DNA from: Bryobacteraceae bacterium
Lineage (GTDB): Bacteria > Acidobacteriota > Terriglobia > Bryobacterales > Bryobacteraceae
NCBI GenBank assembly: GCA_019752335.1
Contig: JAIEMJ010000007.1
Span: 124,001 to 188,000, forward strand
DNA length: 64,000 nucleotides
Direction: 5' to 3'
Shown here: positions 32,110 to 42,836 of the stretch, piece by piece
Layout of the letters: every line of letters starts with the position of its first letter
Position numbering within the stretch: the stretch's first letter is position 1
Notes under the pieces: generated by a model
Databases searched by the model: none
What the model saw: only the letters and a program-made list of their open reading frames with translations
What the model was told of the DNA's origin: nothing
Translations under genes and position numbers: made by a program

Positions 32110-33684
32110 CTATGGCAACCTGGTGACGGAATTCAACGTTACCACCTGGCCATCCCGCACCAGACGTTCGCGCAGCGCCGCGTAGTCGACATCCTGCACC
32201 GCGCGCTTCGTCCTGAGCGCGAGCGCGGCGGCGGTGCCCGCCGCTTGGCCCAACGACATGAAGGTCTGCTCCAAGCGAATCGCCCCGTAGGCGACATGCG
32301 ACGACGAAGGCGCCGTGGCGGTGAGTAAGTTCGTAGCTTCCTGGCGGCGCGGCACCAAGGCGCGGTAAGCGATGCCGAAGGGCCCCCATTGGTTATCGTC
32401 GAAAACGAAGCCCTCGTTGTAAGCCGCGCCGTCTTTCACAATGCGGCGGACGCTGTGCGTGTCGGTGGGCCAGTAAGCCACGGCCACCGGATCGGCGACG
32501 GGCACCGCGTTCGTCCGCCGTGTGTGGTGCTCGGTAAGGACAAAGTCCGAAACCATGCGGCGGCCGTCGCGAATATACAACTGCCGGGGCCAGCCGCCGT
32601 TATCGGTAAACTCATCGCGCGGCAAGCCCCACTCCTTCCACGCGGCGCGAGTCTCCGAGGGAATTTCCGGATCATGCTGGAGCAACCAAAGTAACCCTTG
32701 CGTGAATTCACGATGCTCGCGAAATATGCGCTCACGTGTCGAGTAAGTGCCGTTGGGCCACTCGCGATTCATGCCGTAGAGATTCGCCGACAAGTCGTGC
32801 CAACTGCCGAGGTCCGTCTTGCCATTGGGCAGGCGCGCGGTGGGCGTCCAGAGTTTCCCCCCGGCTTTCACATAACGAAAGTAGATTTCGTATTGCGCGC
32901 GATCAAAGCTGGCAGGTTTCTCAATCGGCAAGCGATTCGCCGGATCCTTGGTGAGGCACAGGCGGAAGCAGAAGGCTTGGATATTCTTGTCGCCCGCGCC
33001 GGGCGTGCCGAAGGCTTCGTCTTGAATGGTCGCAATCAGCCCGCTGCGCGGGTCGCCGGGAGTGCGGTAAGGATCTACCCGGACCGCGAACTGCGCGTGC
33101 GTCGTCTCCGCACGGATGCCATTCTTGGTCTCTCCATAGAGAGCATTCGCCTCGCGGCCCACGGTCGTCGCGACGCCCGCCGCCGCCAGTAAGTCGCCCT
33201 CCAGCGTCGCGTCAATAAAGGCGCTCGCCGCGATGCGCTCGCCGGACTCCATCGTGATGGCGCGCAGCACCGTCCCTTGCTTCTCCACCGACGAGCGCAA
33301 CGGCTCCCGCAGGCGCTTGCCGCGGTGGACGGTTACCCCGGCTTCGCGCAACAGCCCGGCAAATACTTCCTCCGCCACATGCGACTCGTAGCGGTAAACC
33401 GGTCCCTTCTGGCCGTACTTCGCGCCAATCCGTCGGTAGTATTCAGCCGCCAAGCCACCCACGGCGTCCGCGTTGCAAAACCAATGATTATTGATATCGT
33501 TGCTGCCCAAGCCGTCCACGGCAATGCCGCCGACGTGCTGTTCCGGTGCGACCAAGACGACGCTCAGGCCCATGCGCCGGCCCTGTACCGCGGCCATGAC
33601 GCCCGCGGCCGTACCGCCGTACACCGCTAAGTCCACCGCGCCCGCGGGCAGCGCGGCGAACAGGAGCGAAATAAGAAAACGCAT
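32110..33684 (-). CDS. Exported FAD-dependent oxidoreductase
   Basis: The protein has 524 residues. A signal peptide (MRFLISLLFAALPAGA) precedes a Rossmann FAD-binding start (LAVYGGTAAGVMAA, 19-32, a GxxxxG variant) and the conserved VGGIAVDGLGSNDINNH block of the FAD_oxidored family (pfam12831). These enzymes are presumed to oxidise sugars or related compounds in the periplasm; none of the substrate choice is readable. The ATG (33684-33682) directly abuts the TAG stop of the TonB receptor gene (TAGATG), so translation of the two is probably coupled. That suggests the enzyme works on what the receptor imports. Confidence 0.85.
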   Translation of the reverse strand: MRFLISLLFAALPAGAVDLAVYGGTAAGVMAAVQGRRMGLSVVLVAPEQHVGGIAVDGLGSNDINNHWFCNADAVGGLAAEYYRRIGAKYGQKGPVYRYESHVAEEVFAGLLREAGVTVHRGKRLREPLRSSVEKQGTVLRAITMESGERIAASAFIDATLEGDLLAAAGVATTVGREANALYGETKNGIRAETTHAQFAVRVDPYRTPGDPRSGLIATIQDEAFGTPGAGDKNIQAFCFRLCLTKDPANRLPIEKPASFDRAQYEIYFRYVKAGGKLWTPTARLPNGKTDLGSWHDLSANLYGMNREWPNGTYSTRERIFREHREFTQGLLWLLQHDPEIPSETRAAWKEWGLPRDEFTDNGGWPRQLYIRDGRRMVSDFVLTEHHTRRTNAVPVADPVAVAYWPTDTHSVRRIVKDGAAYNEGFVFDDNQWGPFGIAYRALVPRRQEATNLLTATAPSSSHVAYGAIRLEQTFMSLGQAAGTAAALALRTKRAVQDVDYAALRERLVRDGQVVTLNSVTRLP

Positions 33685-37068: not shown

Positions 37069-37220
37069 GGCTGAGACTCCTTCTGCATGGGTATCCGGAT
37101 ATCTTGAAACGTGCCTGACACCATCGGCCAGCATCTTTTTGCCTTGCTCCGGTTGTCACGTAAGTTACTTAGTTTCAGGCGGCTAGCGCCTGTTAAAAGA
37201 TTGTTGTATCGTTGTTGTGC

Positions 37221-38468
37221 ATGCCTGTGGGGTCCGAAGTGCTGGAAATCGAAGCCAAACGGCGCATCCTGGACGACTTGCTCGGCAGCTCTGCCTTCGG
37301 CCGGTCTGACCAGTTGCGGCAGATGCTGCGCTACATCGTGGAAGAAGAACTGGCCGGCCGCGGTGACCAACTCAGCGAGTACGCCATCGGGGTCCATGCC
37401 CTCGGCCGCCCCGCCGGTTACAGCCCCGAAGTCGACTCCACCGTCCGCACCCGCGCCCACGAACTGCGCCGTCGCATGGAGGATCACTTCCAGTCCGCCG
37501 AAGGCTGGCGGATTGAGCTGCCCAAGGGCAGCTACCGGGCTCGCTTCGTGCCGGTCCCTATCGAAGTAGCTGTCACGGTAGACCAGGAGCCCGAACGGAA
37601 GGTCTCCCGCTTCTGGCCCGGCTTCGCCACCGGTGTGTTCGCCCTGCTGGCGCTGGGTCTCGCCGCGAAATACCTGTGGCCGTTGCCGGAGGGCGAACGG
37701 GCTGCGCGCGAAATCTGGGGTCCGTTGCTTGCGCCGGGCGGCACGGTCACCGTGCTGCTCGCCACCACGCCGCAGCTTTGGGTGCGCGAGTTCGGCAATC
37801 AACCGCTGCCCGAGAAGGATCCACCGTTCAGCCTGCCCGTCCCCAGTGACCCGCGCTTTGCTGACTGGTATCGTCAACAGACGTCGCGCGTGCCCCAGCA
37901 TCTGATTCTGCATCCCAACATTCATTCGCCCCTGGGTGGCGAAGCCGAAGCCGCCGTGCGCCTGGCGGCGTTCCTCAGTGGCCGCGGCGTGCAGATCGAG
38001 ACCCTGGTGAGCGACCGCACCGGCGCCGCCGACATTCGCGACCGGAATGCCGTCGTACTCGGCCGCCCCGAGTACAGCCGCGTCGCGGCTACCCTGCAGC
38101 CCGCTGACGGGTTCGCCGTACGCTACGTGCCGGAGCGCCGGGAGTTCGGTGTCGTCTCCGCTGACGGCCAACGCGCCTTCTTTCGGGACCGCCCCGGCAA
38201 CATCAACTACGGCCTCATCACTGTGCTCACCAAACGTACCGACGCCGGCCCGCACCGCACCATCCTCTTCGCCGGGATCAACTCCGACGGTAGCGACGCC
38301 GCCATGGAACACCTCACTTCGCTGCTGAATCTCACTTCGCTGGCGAAAGAACTGCGCACCCGGCAGAGTACCCTGCCGGACTCCTACCAGGTCGTGGTCC
38401 GCGCCCGCTCCTCTGACACCCGGATTCTCGAAGCCGAACGCGTCGCCGTTCATGTCTTAGGCAAATAG
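37221..38468 (+). CDS. Membrane-anchored winged-helix (ToxR/CadC-like) regulator
   Basis: The protein has 415 residues from the ATG at 37221 (a TTG at 37212 is less likely). Residues 1-110 form a cytoplasmic winged-helix domain of the OmpR/ToxR type (SEYAIGVHALGRPAGYSPEVDS, then the DNA-contacting helix VRTRAHELRRRM and the wing IELPKGSYRARF). A single membrane helix spans 131-153, and about 260 residues lie in the periplasm without a known domain. Such one-component proteins sense outside and bind DNA inside. It is divergent from the TonB receptor/FAD oxidoreductase pair, its likely target. A paralogue with the same layout is at 41585-42787. The 3' end overlaps the convergent DUF1501 gene by 12 bases. 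Confidence 0.85.
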   Translation: MPVGSEVLEIEAKRRILDDLLGSSAFGRSDQLRQMLRYIVEEELAGRGDQLSEYAIGVHALGRPAGYSPEVDSTVRTRAHELRRRMEDHFQSAEGWRIELPKGSYRARFVPVPIEVAVTVDQEPERKVSRFWPGFATGVFALLALGLAAKYLWPLPEGERAAREIWGPLLAPGGTVTVLLATTPQLWVREFGNQPLPEKDPPFSLPVPSDPRFADWYRQQTSRVPQHLILHPNIHSPLGGEAEAAVRLAAFLSGRGVQIETLVSDRTGAADIRDRNAVVLGRPEYSRVAATLQPADGFAVRYVPERREFGVVSADGQRAFFRDRPGNINYGLITVLTKRTDAGPHRTILFAGINSDGSDAAMEHLTSLLNLTSLAKELRTRQSTLPDSYQVVVRARSSDTRILEAERVAVHVLGK

Positions 38469-39815
38469 GTCCGATACTTCGCGAAAATTTACGACCTTCG
38501 TCCCGGCCGCCGGATCCACATACAAAAAATCGCGGCCCGAAGGGGTCTTGGTAATGCGCTTACTCCAATCAATCCCCAGCGCCGAGTAGATGGTGGCGCA
38601 CATATCCTCGGTATAAACCGGGCGCTTGGCGCTCCAGCCGTAGTCCGTAATCTTTGCGCCTTGGGCGTCCGTGGCGCCCATCGCCCGGCCGCCTTTCACT
38701 CCCGCGCCCGCGAATACCGCAAACATCGTATCGGCATAATGTTCCCGGCCCGCTTCGGGAGTCAGTTCGCCTGGCGTACGGCCGAACTCGCCCATGCAGA
38801 TGATGAGCGTCCGTTCGAGTAACTTCATCCGCTTCAGATCCGCCAATAGACTGGCGAAGGCGGGGTCCAGCGTGGAACAGGTCTTATAGAGTCCGCCTTG
38901 GCCTTGCTTGCCGTAGATATTGCCGTGATGATCCCAGCCCGGCTGCGTCACCAGGAGGAAACGTGCTCCGGCCTTGGCCGCCACCATGTTGCGCGCGATC
39001 AGGCAGGCGTCGCCAAAAGGCGTGCCTCCATAGGCGGCACGCTCTTCGTCGGTCATCTTCAGCACACTCGACATGGCCGGAGTGTTCATCATCTTGAAGA
39101 CGGCGCGGGAAAAGCTATCGAAGCGGCGCATGCCCACCGGAGAGGCGTCGTCGAGCGACAGGCGGCTAGAGTCCATCGCCTGCAAGGTTTCCCAGCGGCG
39201 CAGCAGCCGCGCGCGATCTTTCTCTTCCACGAAAAACGGCAGGTTCTTGCTCGCCAAGTCGAGCGTCAGAGGCGCACAGTCCGCCGGCAGACAACCCTCG
39301 CCCTGCAAAGGACCGTACATCGTCGTCGGCTCGTAGTTCATCGAAACAAAGGGCGGCAAAAAGTCAGTGCTTTTGGCTTGTCCCGCGAATTCGTGCGCGA
39401 TCACCGCGCCCAAAGCCGGACTCTCCTTCACCCGCGCCGGACTCACCGCATGGCCCGTCTGCAAGTAGTACTGGCCGCGCGAATGCACCGTCTCCCAAGC
39501 CTGGGCAGACCGCACCACGGCTAAGTCGCCTAAGTGCGCCGCCAGTTTCGGCATCAGCCCGTAAGGATACTCGTAGCCGAACGGTGTCGGCCGCACGTCG
39601 CGGTTTTCCGGCGCCCACTTACCGTGCTTCACATCGAACATATCCATCTGCGAAGGGCCGCCTTGCAGATTGAGAAAAATTACCGCATCCGCTGACCCAC
39701 GCGGCGTCACGCGCGACTGCGCGTGGACATTCAACGGCTGGAATACTTCGGGTAAGTCGTAGCCCGCCACCGACAAGGCGCCTAGGCTGAGTAACTCGCG
39801 GCGTGTAAGTTTCAT
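38457..39815 (-). CDS. DUF1501 protein, Tat-type signal
   Basis: The protein has 452 residues. The N-terminus MKLTRRELLSLGALSVAG is a twin-arginine-like signal. DUF1501 hallmarks are present: VIFLNLQGGPSQMDMFDVK, the central ARFLLVTQPGWDHHG and CMGEFGRTP with the late DYGW. The fold is related to alkaline phosphatase/sulfatase enzymes, but no activity is established. Its start is one base behind the stop of the DUF1549/DUF1553 gene, the standard pairing in Planctomycetes and Acidobacteria. Presumed periplasmic; a role in polysaccharide breakdown has been proposed for such pairs but is not proven. Confidence 0.9.
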   Translation of the reverse strand: MKLTRRELLSLGALSVAGYDLPEVFQPLNVHAQSRVTPRGSADAVIFLNLQGGPSQMDMFDVKHGKWAPENRDVRPTPFGYEYPYGLMPKLAAHLGDLAVVRSAQAWETVHSRGQYYLQTGHAVSPARVKESPALGAVIAHEFAGQAKSTDFLPPFVSMNYEPTTMYGPLQGEGCLPADCAPLTLDLASKNLPFFVEEKDRARLLRRWETLQAMDSSRLSLDDASPVGMRRFDSFSRAVFKMMNTPAMSSVLKMTDEERAAYGGTPFGDACLIARNMVAAKAGARFLLVTQPGWDHHGNIYGKQGQGGLYKTCSTLDPAFASLLADLKRMKLLERTLIICMGEFGRTPGELTPEAGREHYADTMFAVFAGAGVKGGRAMGATDAQGAKITDYGWSAKRPVYTEDMCATIYSALGIDWSKRITKTPSGRDFLYVDPAAGTKVVNFREVSDLFA

Positions 39816-39816
39816 C

Positions 39817-41496
39817 TTAGTAAAAAAGAAAATCCAGACGGTTGACTAACATCCACAACAGATCCTCGGCGCCGGCTTCGCGATGCTCGCGAATCAACTC
39901 CACGCCCAGCCGCTTCTCGGTCTCCGACGGTGGACGCGACAGGGCCGCCAGATACAACTCGTCGACTACGGCCTCATTCGACGCCGGCGATTCTGACCGT
40001 AGCAAGCCTTCGAGCCGGCTGCCCTTTTGAATCGCCAGGCGTTCGCGAATCAGCTTGTCGTTCATCAGAATGGCTGCCTGCACCATCGACGGCTTACGAT
40101 CCGCTTCGATGGCGTAGCGGTCGCACTGGCCAAAGGCTTGCAGAGCGCGGAAGAGCGCCGGGTCACTCTTGTCGATGTCCTGCGGTGAACGCGTCTGCAT
40201 CACGGATGCCGCTTTCTTGTTCGAGAACGTGACAGTGAACGACGGCGCCACGCCCGTCACCTGCGCGATGGCGTCGAAGGTCTGTTCCGCCGAAAGCCGT
40301 CGTGTCACGCGGCGCGAGAAGTAGCTCTCGTGCGTGGGTTGCCAGCCCTTCGGCGCTTCGATGGTGCGGGCGTAAGCGCGGGAAGACACAATCTGGCGCA
40401 TCAACCGGCGCAGATCGTGCCCATTCTTGCGGAAGTCCTCCGCCAGCACGTCCAGTAGCTCGGGATGCGACGGCTGCAAGGTCCACGGCGCCGGCGGCGG
40501 ATTTTTCGGATCCTGCCGCGCCAAGTCGAAGTCGAAGGGGCCGTCGACAATGCCCTGCCCCATCAGTTCGGCCCAGAAGAGATTCACCGTCGCGCGCGCG
40601 AACTGCGGATGGCTTGTCAGCAAGCGGGCGTAGGCCTCGCGCGGCTTCTCGCCGGGCGGAATCCGCTCGCCGGACAGCAGAAACGTTGGCGTCACGTCGG
40701 CTTTGGGATTGCGCGCCGGCCGCAGCGAACTGCGCGTCGTCAAGTTGTAGCCCTTCGCCGTATCCTTCACCAAAAACTGGGGCGAGCGCCCGAACACCGG
40801 TGAGATGAACGTCTGTCCGAAGAAGCTCGCCTGCCTCCAGAACTCAGTGCGTTTGCGTTGGCTGAGCCAGAGATTCACCTTCTCCAGATGATGCGCGCCG
40901 TCATGGCAGGAGATGCACTCGGCGTTCACCCCCAGGAAGAGCTTCGTGGTGTTGATCGCGATCTCGTCGGCGGTGTCCTCGTGGTTCATCTGGTAGCCGT
41001 CGCCCTCGAAGATATGGCTCCGCGCGATGAAATTGGCCGGGCCATCGGTCCACGTAGAGACGGCGGTGGCGGTGATCAGATCGCGGACAAACTCGTCGTA
41101 GGGCAGGTTGAGCGTGAGGACCTTGTAGATGTAGTCGTGCTGCGTGTTAATGCCTTCCTCGAGCAACTGCCCGTTGCGGAAGAGGTCGTCGAAGAAGTAC
41201 GTCCACCGGTCGAGAAATGGCGCTTCCTTGAGTGACCGCATGCCGGCTACCGGCAGCGGCGGAAACAGGGAGTCGATCATCTTCTGGCGCTTGTCCGCGT
41301 CGCGACTGGCCAGAAATTCCCGCGCCGCTTTCACGGTCGGCAGACGTCCGGTGAGGTCCAAGGAGACCCGACGGAGAAACTCGGCGTCGCCGGCCGGGGC
41401 GGCCATTGGCACGCGGTCGGCCTTGGCCTTGGCGTCGACGAATCGGTCCACCAGATTGTCGTCAGCCGCGAGGAGCAGCAGCAGAAGCGCGGTCAT
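39817..41496 (-). CDS. DUF1549 / DUF1553 protein with CxxCH motif
   Basis: The protein has 559 residues with a short hydrophobic leader (MTALLLLLLAA). The DUF1549 half contains FLRRVSLDLTGRLPT and, around residues 190-200, ECISCHDGAHH, a CxxCH that could bind haem c. The DUF1553 half begins near ARLLTSHPQFARATVNLFWAELMGQGIVDG and ends with FSRRVTRRLSAEQTFDAI. It is co-transcribed with the DUF1501 gene one base downstream. Many homologues have an extra N-terminal cytochrome domain (PSCyt); this one is short and lacks it. The function is unknown. Confidence 0.9.
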   Translation of the reverse strand: MTALLLLLLAADDNLVDRFVDAKAKADRVPMAAPAGDAEFLRRVSLDLTGRLPTVKAAREFLASRDADKRQKMIDSLFPPLPVAGMRSLKEAPFLDRWTYFFDDLFRNGQLLEEGINTQHDYIYKVLTLNLPYDEFVRDLITATAVSTWTDGPANFIARSHIFEGDGYQMNHEDTADEIAINTTKLFLGVNAECISCHDGAHHLEKVNLWLSQRKRTEFWRQASFFGQTFISPVFGRSPQFLVKDTAKGYNLTTRSSLRPARNPKADVTPTFLLSGERIPPGEKPREAYARLLTSHPQFARATVNLFWAELMGQGIVDGPFDFDLARQDPKNPPPAPWTLQPSHPELLDVLAEDFRKNGHDLRRLMRQIVSSRAYARTIEAPKGWQPTHESYFSRRVTRRLSAEQTFDAIAQVTGVAPSFTVTFSNKKAASVMQTRSPQDIDKSDPALFRALQAFGQCDRYAIEADRKPSMVQAAILMNDKLIRERLAIQKGSRLEGLLRSESPASNEAVVDELYLAALSRPPSETEKRLGVELIREHREAGAEDLLWMLVNRLDFLFY

Positions 41497-41584
41497 ATCC
41501 TAGGATTAGGGCACGAAGCACGGAGCAGCGGGAAGTCAAATGGGGTGTAGTTAGCCTTTGTAGCGCAGATGTAACGTAGACAGA

Positions 41585-42787
41585 TCAACGCTTTAGAGCG
41601 CGGGCGGCCACGGGACGCGCATCGAGCACCCGCTCCGCATTTAGCTCATACCGGATCAGCGCCTCGAAGTACGCCCCCGTGTTCTTCTCTTGCAGGAAGG
41701 CCTGCAGGCCCGCCAACTCCGTCTGATTAGTCAACAGCGAAACCAGGGCCGGGTTAAAGCTGGAAGCCACCACGAGAATGTGGGTCCCCTTGGTCTTTCC
41801 CGGCAGCAACGCGATTACGCCGTAGCCGATGCTGCGAATCGGGGACAGTGACTGGGCCGGAAACCCGTTGCCGGAAGAGCGATCCAATAAGCCTCGGCTG
41901 ACGCCGCTCGGCGACCGGGTAAAGGCGTAACCCAGCCGGTCCATCACTCCGGCCACCTGATTCGCCGAACCCGGACCAAGCAGCAGAATGGCATCCTGCG
42001 TGTCCATCATGGTGAGCGAGACTGCCGGCGTATCCAGCACCGACGCGGGCACCCCACGGTCCTCCAGGTAGCGCGAGAGCGACGATGCAGCCACCGTATC
42101 GGAGGCAATCGTATAGAGCTGGCTGACGTCCGGCCGGCCATGGTCCTGCCGCAGGCGCTCCAGAAATGGGGACTGCGCGAAGTCCTCCGGGCGGGTCACC
42201 CGGAAGTCGCGTGCAACGAGGGCGTCCCAACGGAAGAACAGGGGCGCGGGAACCACAATCCCCAGTGGCCGGCCCGGCTGGGCGAACTGTTGCCAGAAAG
42301 CTTCCAGCCGTGGGCGCTCCACGGGTTTCGGCGCCCAACGCAGACGCAAGTTGTCGGCGGCGAGCAGAAGACAGAGGGCGGAGAGAGCAAGAACGGCCGC
42401 CCTCCCCCGCGACGGTCGCGGTTCGTGCGCCGACGACGACAGTGCCGGCCGCGCCGTGACGAATTCCAGGCGGTATTCACCCGGCGGGATATGCACCCGC
42501 AAACCGCTGCCGGGCGTGGTCTCGTAATACTCCTTCAGCCGCGTGCGCAGACGGGAGACGTGGACGCGTACGACCGAGTCCGTTTTCGGATCGAAGCCAA
42601 CCGGACGGCCCAAAACCTCCGTGCCCAGGGCATACTCCGAGACTGCGGCCCCACGGTGCTTCCAAAGGTACAGCAAGAGATCGCGCAACACCGGCGCCTT
42701 GCGAAACGACGCGCTACCGGCCACCGTCTCGACGAGACTCTGCGCCGCGGATTCGGAAGCGTGGGCGGCGATGGGGAGATCGGACAC
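41585..42787 (-). CDS. Membrane-anchored winged-helix (ToxR/CadC-like) regulator, second paralogue
   Basis: The protein has 400 residues. The winged helix spans about 15-110 (SEYALGTEVLGRPVGFDPKTDS, helix VRVHVSRLRTRLKEYYE, wing HIPPGEYRLEF), the membrane helix about 129-147, and the rest is periplasmic. The outer domain can be aligned by eye with that of the 37221 protein at DAILLLG/NAVVLGR and YGVIALL/YGLITVL, so the two sensor domains are probably homologous. It lies 88 bases upstream of the DUF1549/1553-DUF1501 pair on the same strand and may be transcribed with it or control it. Confidence 0.83.
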   Translation of the reverse strand: MSDLPIAAHASESAAQSLVETVAGSASFRKAPVLRDLLLYLWKHRGAAVSEYALGTEVLGRPVGFDPKTDSVVRVHVSRLRTRLKEYYETTPGSGLRVHIPPGEYRLEFVTARPALSSSAHEPRPSRGRAAVLALSALCLLLAADNLRLRWAPKPVERPRLEAFWQQFAQPGRPLGIVVPAPLFFRWDALVARDFRVTRPEDFAQSPFLERLRQDHGRPDVSQLYTIASDTVAASSLSRYLEDRGVPASVLDTPAVSLTMMDTQDAILLLGPGSANQVAGVMDRLGYAFTRSPSGVSRGLLDRSSGNGFPAQSLSPIRSIGYGVIALLPGKTKGTHILVVASSFNPALVSLLTNQTELAGLQAFLQEKNTGAYFEALIRYELNAERVLDARPVAARALKR

Positions 42788-42836
42788 GGAAACCCGATTT
42801 TAGCCCATGCTCAGGGCGCGCGGCGTTCAGCAGAGG

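Follow-up and report, generated by a model that had tools for sequence, protein, structure and literature searches.

Paralogous membrane-anchored winged-helix proteins as candidate one-component regulators of TonB-linked loci in a Bryobacteraceae genome

We describe two paralogous genes, here called REG1 and REG2, in a 64,000-nucleotide stretch of a Bryobacteraceae bacterium (Acidobacteriota; assembly GCA_019752335.1, contig JAIEMJ010000007.1, positions 124,001 to 188,000; "the window", whose coordinates are used throughout). Both encode a winged-helix protein anchored in the membrane. An earlier note made from the sequence had read positions 37069-42787 as two ToxR-like regulators, one divergent from a TonB receptor/FAD oxidoreductase pair and the other upstream of a DUF1549/1553-DUF1501 pair. 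All of its open reading frames (ORFs), their coordinates and the layout hold on re-examination (Table 1). The REG1 and DUF1501 genes are convergent and overlap by 12 nucleotides. The longest ORF of the TonB receptor begins at 37134; its likely start, with a signal peptide, is 37068. The start of REG1 is ambiguous between ATG 37221 and GTG 37239 (ATG in the Bryobacter ortholog, with a conserved GGGG ahead), and both codon positions are conserved. The order of the six-gene block is kept in Bryobacter sp. Bin_55_1 (locus L166), which is more than chance. In that genome the TonB receptor and REG1 are separated by one more FAD oxidoreductase gene (L166:7258-8990), which the window lacks.

Table 1. 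Features of the REG1/REG2 block in window coordinates
Feature	Position	Strand	Basis and remarks
FAD oxidoreductase (PF12831)	32110-33684	-	ORF and Pfam; same strand, behind the TonB receptor
TonB receptor (CarboxypepD_reg + PF25183)	33685 to about 37068	-	ORF and Pfam
Candidate REG1 operator, CTGTTA, TTGTTG, TTGTTG at 11-bp steps	37190-37217	+	Conserved in Bryobacter
REG1, membrane-anchored winged-helix regulator	37221-38468	+	ORF; homology to REG2; divergent from the TonB receptor
REG1 winged helix (about residues 10-112)	37248-37556	+	Match to REG2; AlphaFold; nearest folds include PhoB, SaeR and CadC domains
REG1 membrane helix (about residues 131-152)	37611-37676	+	Hydropathy
REG1 sensor domain, alpha/beta	37689-38465	+	AlphaFold; homology to the REG2 sensor
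DUF1501 protein (PF07394)	38457-39815	-	ORF and Pfam
DUF1549/DUF1553 protein (PSCyt2 + PSD1; PF07583 + PF07587)	39817-41496	-	ORF and Pfam
Candidate operator between REG2 and DUF1549, ACGTTAC-N4-GCGCTAC, 11-bp step	41560-41577	-	Step kept in Bryobacter
REG2, REG1 paralog heading the same-strand DUF1549/1553-DUF1501 pair	41585-42787	-	ORF, Pfam and homology
REG2 sensor domain	41588-42322	-	Homology to the REG1 sensor
GGGCTAAAATC block upstream of REG2, -10-like	42796-42806	-	Conserved in Bryobacter

REG1 and REG2 are full-length paralogs, each composed of a winged helix, a single membrane helix and a sensor domain of approximately 250 amino acids. The first 110 residues of REG1 match REG2 with 34% identity (BLASTP, E 5e-19). 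REG2 narrowly exceeds the Pfam cut-off for Trans_reg_C (26.7 versus 26.2 bits), REG1 has no Pfam match at E <= 1, and 5 of 24 family members scanned match Trans_reg_C at E <= 0.01. AlphaFold predicts a winged helix at the N-terminus of REG1 with high confidence and one further helix with low confidence. The structural neighbors of the model include domains of SaeR, PhoB and CadC, with Z between 6.4 and 7.1 (CadC 5ju7: Z 6.4, root mean square deviation [rmsd] 3.5, 86 residues aligned). OmpR-type domains have an N-terminal four-strand sheet, beta1-beta4 (PMC5430869), while the predicted REG1 model has a helix there, at residues 3-14, and no strand before residue 88. Because the predicted model is without the N-terminal strands, we file the class as working like ToxR and not as a member of the OmpR type. 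Among the 83 family members collected below, the hydropathy of the linker peaks at 1.3 or more in 82 and at 1.6 or more in 76, and a simpler scan finds a membrane helix in 73. No histidine kinase or receiver domain is found in REG1 or REG2 by Pfam, nor in the 24 members at E <= 0.01 by Pfam or NCBIfam. REG1 and REG2 likewise have no sigma domain in either database, and no sigma gene lies between them. The 24 members yield a single weak NCBIfam anti-sigma match (E 0.0012) and a single DUF2922 match (E 0.0092), each in one protein.

In REG1, REG2 and the 24 members scanned, no Pfam or NCBIfam model reaches its cut-off over the sensor, and the BLASTP alignment of REG1 with REG2 stops short of this domain. 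The possibility that the two sensors are unrelated was considered and rejected: BLASTP sees the winged helix alone, but a single profile-profile comparison of the two sensor sub-families aligns 237 columns (probability 99.9, E 2.6e-31), which agrees with the alignment first made by eye. Structure prediction, one of the checks proposed at that time, gives a confident alpha/beta model for the REG1 sensor (mean predicted local distance difference test [pLDDT] 84.1, predicted template modeling score [pTM] 0.80). Its best structural neighbors include BcsB (9fmt_F: Z 10.4, rmsd 3.4, 161 aligned), the N-terminal domain of GH67 (1mqq: Z 10.1, rmsd 3.2, 126 aligned), an S-layer anchoring domain (9fsa: Z 10.0, rmsd 3.0, 123 aligned), and the N-terminal domains of GH115 (4zmh_B: Z 9.2, rmsd 3.6, 136 aligned) and GH84. 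Carbohydrate is acted on or bound by most neighbors of this predicted fold, and a fold by itself shows no function. The likeness to BcsB and to the GH67, GH115 and GH84 domains is one of predicted fold only; a sequence search of the PDB with the sensor finds no relative (best E 0.38).

We are interested in how widely such proteins occur. The genome of the window holds six full-length members. In a family sample of 41 genomes, one per genus, all 41 match at E <= 1e-10, some through the winged helix only, and a full-length relative is present in 36 among the matches listed; G009, G022, G023, G024 and G025 are the genomes without a listed long match. The 83 members analyzed come from 80 fetched loci (numbered with L; the first long matches among those listed) and from the window's own genome. 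L068, L088 and L104, in which the regulator was lost in gene calling, are left out of the 83. Three further relatives (L169, L170, L174) are near-duplicates of one another and of L067. Across the phylum, at least 12 of 199 genomes match a profile of the sensor alone, which is biased to REG1; eleven of these are the genome itself or belong to its class, and one lies outside the class. The count of 12 is a lower bound because at most 13 candidates were scored per genome.

Are certain neighbors overrepresented? The gene upstream of the regulator is a TonB receptor in 44 of the 77 members that have an upstream gene of 150 amino acids or more, and it is divergent in all 44; at ranks 4-6, taken as background, TonB accounts for 6 of 188 genes and the DUF1501 type for 1 of 188. 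Counted as transcription units (n = 83), 52 members are divergent from a TonB unit, 9 have a TonB gene downstream on the same strand, 5 have a DUF-type partner and 2 lie at contig ends. In the window's own genome, REG1, L025, L026 and L028 diverge from a TonB gene or from a unit that has one at its end, L027 heads two sulfatases and a TonB gene, and REG2 heads its DUF pair; for five of these six, a scored TonB match is no more than 5 kb away, as is the case for 11% of the genome. At L025 (10393-11844), and also at L168, a 483-amino-acid protein without a Pfam match is encoded between regulator and TonB gene, so it is present in more than one genome. A TonB gene also stands beside the regulator in 11 of 26 loci from the phylum-wide sensor search that lie outside this genome and its family, with a flank of only about 1.5 kb read.

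The preference for both kinds of neighbor expected from the window is thus strong for TonB, while the DUF1501 type is a recurrent minority only (5 of 83). The five partners are DUF1549/1553-DUF1501 for REG2 and L085, DUF1501 beside a GHL-like gene for L073, DUF1800-DUF1501 for L092, and DUF1587/1588/1592-DUF1552 for L077; they are supported by Pfam, or by phmmer for L085. L085 belongs to another genus and repeats the order REG-DUF1549-DUF1501, and its sensor is 38% identical to that of REG2. Beside its six regulators, the 7.2-Mb genome of the window has 59 matches to DUF1501 and no fewer than 65 PF25183 receptors (65 scored among 154 candidates); therefore most such loci must be controlled otherwise.

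As controls we use other proteins with the same winged helix. The set is small, at 22 proteins: 15 with TPR or PD40 repeats (all checked with Pfam), five with Malectin domains, L146, and the 150-amino-acid fragment L161_4. They come from 20 loci, of which L147, L156 and L157 have no called winged helix and L149 stops at a contig end, and from L029-L032 (L033, also of the window's own genome, is left out). The sensor profile matches none of the called proteins in the control loci. The TPR/PD40 fusions, which are often annotated as adenylate cyclase or TPR protein, share the winged helix with the REG class and differ from it in their neighbors as well as in the sensor. Fourteen of them have an upstream gene, and in 1 of these 14 it is a divergent TonB gene; a Fisher test using 1/15 gives p 3.7e-4, with the reservation that these are related genes and so the samples are not independent. 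The Malectin relatives (L030:9204-10748 on contig C34 of the window's own genome, L154, L155, L162 and L164) have a winged helix, a membrane helix and two Malectin domains, which exceed the Pfam cut-off. The Malectin pair gives the same chassis another sensor, one that clearly binds carbohydrate. In L146 (4998-6902) the winged helix is joined to what appears by eye to be an (alpha/alpha)6 glycosidase-like domain, for which Pfam gives no match; a TonB receptor is divergent from it.

It could be argued that regulator and receptor are adjacent merely because a selfish or duplicated TonB-regulator block has been inherited, in which neither gene controls the other. A weak correlation of sensor and TonB distances over all pairs (r 0.156, p 0.0005) is what speaks for this view. 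However, there is no such correlation within genomes (r -0.016, p 0.59), and therefore the pattern is not one of recent block duplication. The arrangement also persists while the partners change, the 83 members have a median pairwise identity of 23%, and a repeat motif is present in the gaps (see below). We regard an inherited block of this kind as very improbable.

The best functional clue comes from a cultured relative, Granulicella tundricola MP5ACTX9. A tblastn and profile search, covering its plasmids, found six members on two of them. All six are annotated "hypothetical protein," and all six face carbohydrate genes: an alginate lyase family gene and TonB (RS19055), GH16 and TonB (RS19180), TonB and GH1 (RS19955), TonB and an endo-1,4-beta-xylanase (RS20075), GH3 and, farther along, a carbohydrate porin (RS20975/RS20980, a single regulator annotated as two coding sequences), and a beta-1,3-glucanase family protein (RS20835). 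The sensor is detected in all six loci, Pfam confirms the alginate lyase and GH3, and the four TonB genes match the receptor of the window with E 5e-29 or better. No SusD-named gene occurs in these annotated loci, where a systematic SusD search was not made. At RS20975/RS20980 (L227:8947-10217, pACIX902) winged helix and sensor are in separate frames, owing to a broken gene or an assembly error. These six loci are the strongest support for a role in polymer use, which the earlier note had proposed in the form of a one-component switch. That part of the proposal gains direct support, whereas activation, DNA binding, the signal and a polymer role for the genes of the window are matters of inference.

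These findings suggest that REG1 and REG2 are probably membrane one-component regulators of the ToxR/CadC kind, which would control adjacent TonB/glycan loci in response to an oligosaccharide-type signal in the periplasm. Local regulators of TonB receptors might instead sense the status of the envelope or of import (engagement of the receptor or of TonB, metal, redox), with the carbohydrate enzymes merely accompanying the receptors. The commonest partner is indeed the TonB receptor itself, often with no annotated carbohydrate enzyme among the called genes, the partners in the window are an FAD oxidoreductase and DUF genes, and a redox role has been suggested for the PSCyt/PSD domains (PMC2754498). 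Yet two of the six Granulicella members face the GH3 or beta-1,3-glucanase family gene with no TonB among the divergent genes shown, one Bryobacterales member (L118) also faces GH3, and the relatives with Malectin domains have divergent TonB-type receptors in three of five cases. We therefore consider sensing of envelope or import status unlikely.

Is there a common DNA element? A tandem box, aCCGTTA with a period of 10-11 bp, is enriched upstream of the members (two-box model; log-likelihood 104, versus 40 for control regions and 34 for shuffles). Among held-out regions, 23 of 81 score above the 95th percentile of 159 control regions and 12 of 81 above the 99th (four-fold cross-validation by genome; per-fold p = 0.050, 0.006, 8e-6 and 0.018). 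Exact 6-mer repeats at 11 bp occur in 12 of 81 member regions versus 8 of 159 control regions (p 0.013); we used the matrix model because this exact signal is weak. In the controls with the same winged helix, one region of 22 exceeds the 95th percentile of 8.2 (L146, with a repeat site of 11.6), and none of the 15 TPR/PD40 regions does. For members that lead an operon, 9 of 12 gaps between regulator and target were scanned (all except L067, L073 and L132). Five of the nine exceed 7.3, the 95th percentile of a 110-bp control to which their lengths of 71 to 521 bp are not matched: L140 (10.1), L119 (9.8), L125 (9.5), L085 (8.9) and L144 (8.1). Weaker scores are found for L081 (6.4), L027 (5.6), REG2 (5.1) and L135 (3.1). 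Among the five gaps of 110-121 bp, L085, L144 and L140 pass 7.3 and L081 and REG2 do not.

The shared motif that the earlier note proposed to map in the two gaps of the window is thus present across the family, but in those gaps it scores no better than control. A consensus operator in the window itself was rejected, with matrix scores that are background-like, and what support the sites in Table 1 have comes from their conservation in Bryobacter. We treat both as candidates only, because neither scores above control. When up to 3 mismatches are allowed, the REG1 candidate is found once in the genome, and its boxes are TTG-rich low-complexity sequence. The GGGCTAAAATC block ahead of REG2 is a putative promoter, judged from its sequence; no sigma-70-like promoter is found in the REG1/TonB gap.

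The sign of control is unreadable from sequence. Were the proteins repressors, the winged helix would block the shared divergent promoter region until the signal lifts the block. In favor of this, the intervals between the divergent genes are small (25-575 bp, mostly below 200), and the candidate repeats directly ahead of the REG1 start are compatible with autorepression. On the other hand, the strong sites of operon-leading members lie between regulator and target and not ahead of the regulator, and CadC, which is ToxR-like, is an activator (PMC5430869). Repression seems to us unlikely.

In our proposal, tandem repeats with a period of about 11 bp at the promoter of the neighboring locus may be bound by a cytoplasmic winged helix. 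The alpha/beta sensor, presumably periplasmic, would read a signal arising locally; the likeliest is an oligosaccharide or some other product of the polymer taken up or degraded through that locus. The ligand might alter the dimer state across the one membrane helix and so change, probably increase, transcription of the neighboring operon. The targets would be the TonB receptor and FAD oxidoreductase for REG1 and the DUF1549/1553 and DUF1501 genes for REG2. REG1 and REG2 would belong to a large acidobacterial class with several paralogs per genome, each serving one local TonB/glycan locus.

Several observations weigh against regulation of glycan loci by a periplasmic signal. All of the support is computational, and the FAD, DUF1549 and DUF1501 neighbors in the window are not known polymer enzymes. 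Nine of the 83 members have neither partner nearby, and six have just a TonB gene within three genes. The absence of a within-genome correlation between sensor and TonB distances, given above, counts here as well. Foldseek finds nothing in the PDB at E <= 0.001 for the winged helix, whose structural matches have Z 7.1 or less, or for the sensor (best E 3.8e-3). An excess of lysine and arginine on the cytoplasmic side of the helix is seen in only 48 of 73 members, which is weak for the topology. As to the repeats, the first cross-validation fold learned another motif, and in the window the matrix gives 5.0 (REG1) and 4.9 (REG2) for the upstream regions and 3.9 and 5.1 for the two gaps. The motif is not above control ahead of the five Malectin relatives (3.8-7.2, versus the 95th percentile of 8.2), and in five gaps of Granulicella the Bryobacterales motif also stays below the 95th percentile of a 200-bp control (best 7.2, versus 8.2).

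ToxR-like regulators (ToxR, CadC, TcpP; also called transmembrane transcription regulators, TTRs) have a cytoplasmic winged helix, one membrane helix, an extracytoplasmic sensor and no kinase, and they control adjacent genes; the REG class has the same order of domains and no kinase, and it would share the orientation in the membrane and the local control. The REG sensor is of another type, and the class has one paralog per TonB/glycan locus. The class would operate in the manner of ToxR; its family of sensors is undescribed, and its type of locus is clear. Transmembrane transcription regulators are known to be numerous in Acidobacteriae (PMC10269533), though TonB is nowhere named in the main text of that paper. 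In Bacteroidetes, hybrid two-component systems and pairs of extracytoplasmic function (ECF) sigma and anti-sigma factors likewise give TonB-linked glycan loci a dedicated local control (PMC10766802), but the REG class consists of one protein, in which no kinase, receiver or sigma factor was found. According to a 2024 review, three systems commonly control the genes for carbohydrate enzymes, namely these two and catabolite repression; none of the three is of the REG type (PMC10766802). In Rhodopirellula the suggested regulator of DUF1549/1553 genes is an ECF factor (PMC2754498), and in Verrucomicrobia genomic context ties PSCyt genes to carbohydrate metabolism (PMC5615132). A search of one library of open-access literature did not find a regulator class of this kind described. 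Acidobacteria are abundant in soils and their regulation of polymer use is poorly known; with G. tundricola, a cultured relative, the proposal is testable at the bench now.

It is tempting to generalize further. We put at about even the chance that Acidobacteria govern their glycan/TonB loci through a further type of dedicated regulator, a modular one-component winged-helix class in which the extracytoplasmic reader domain would swap among the BcsB/glucuronidase-like fold, Malectin pairs and others, with one paralog per locus. Such a class would also serve the unexplained DUF1549-DUF1501, DUF1800-DUF1501 and DUF1587/1588/1592-DUF1552 pairs, and regulator and neighbors might jointly predict the substrate.

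Finally, two divergent gaps in Granulicella (L225:8740-8913 and L226:8646-9000) have a GTCACAAGTC stretch in common, which is not captured by the Bryobacterales matrix. This stretch may be an operator of a second type or a leader common to both.

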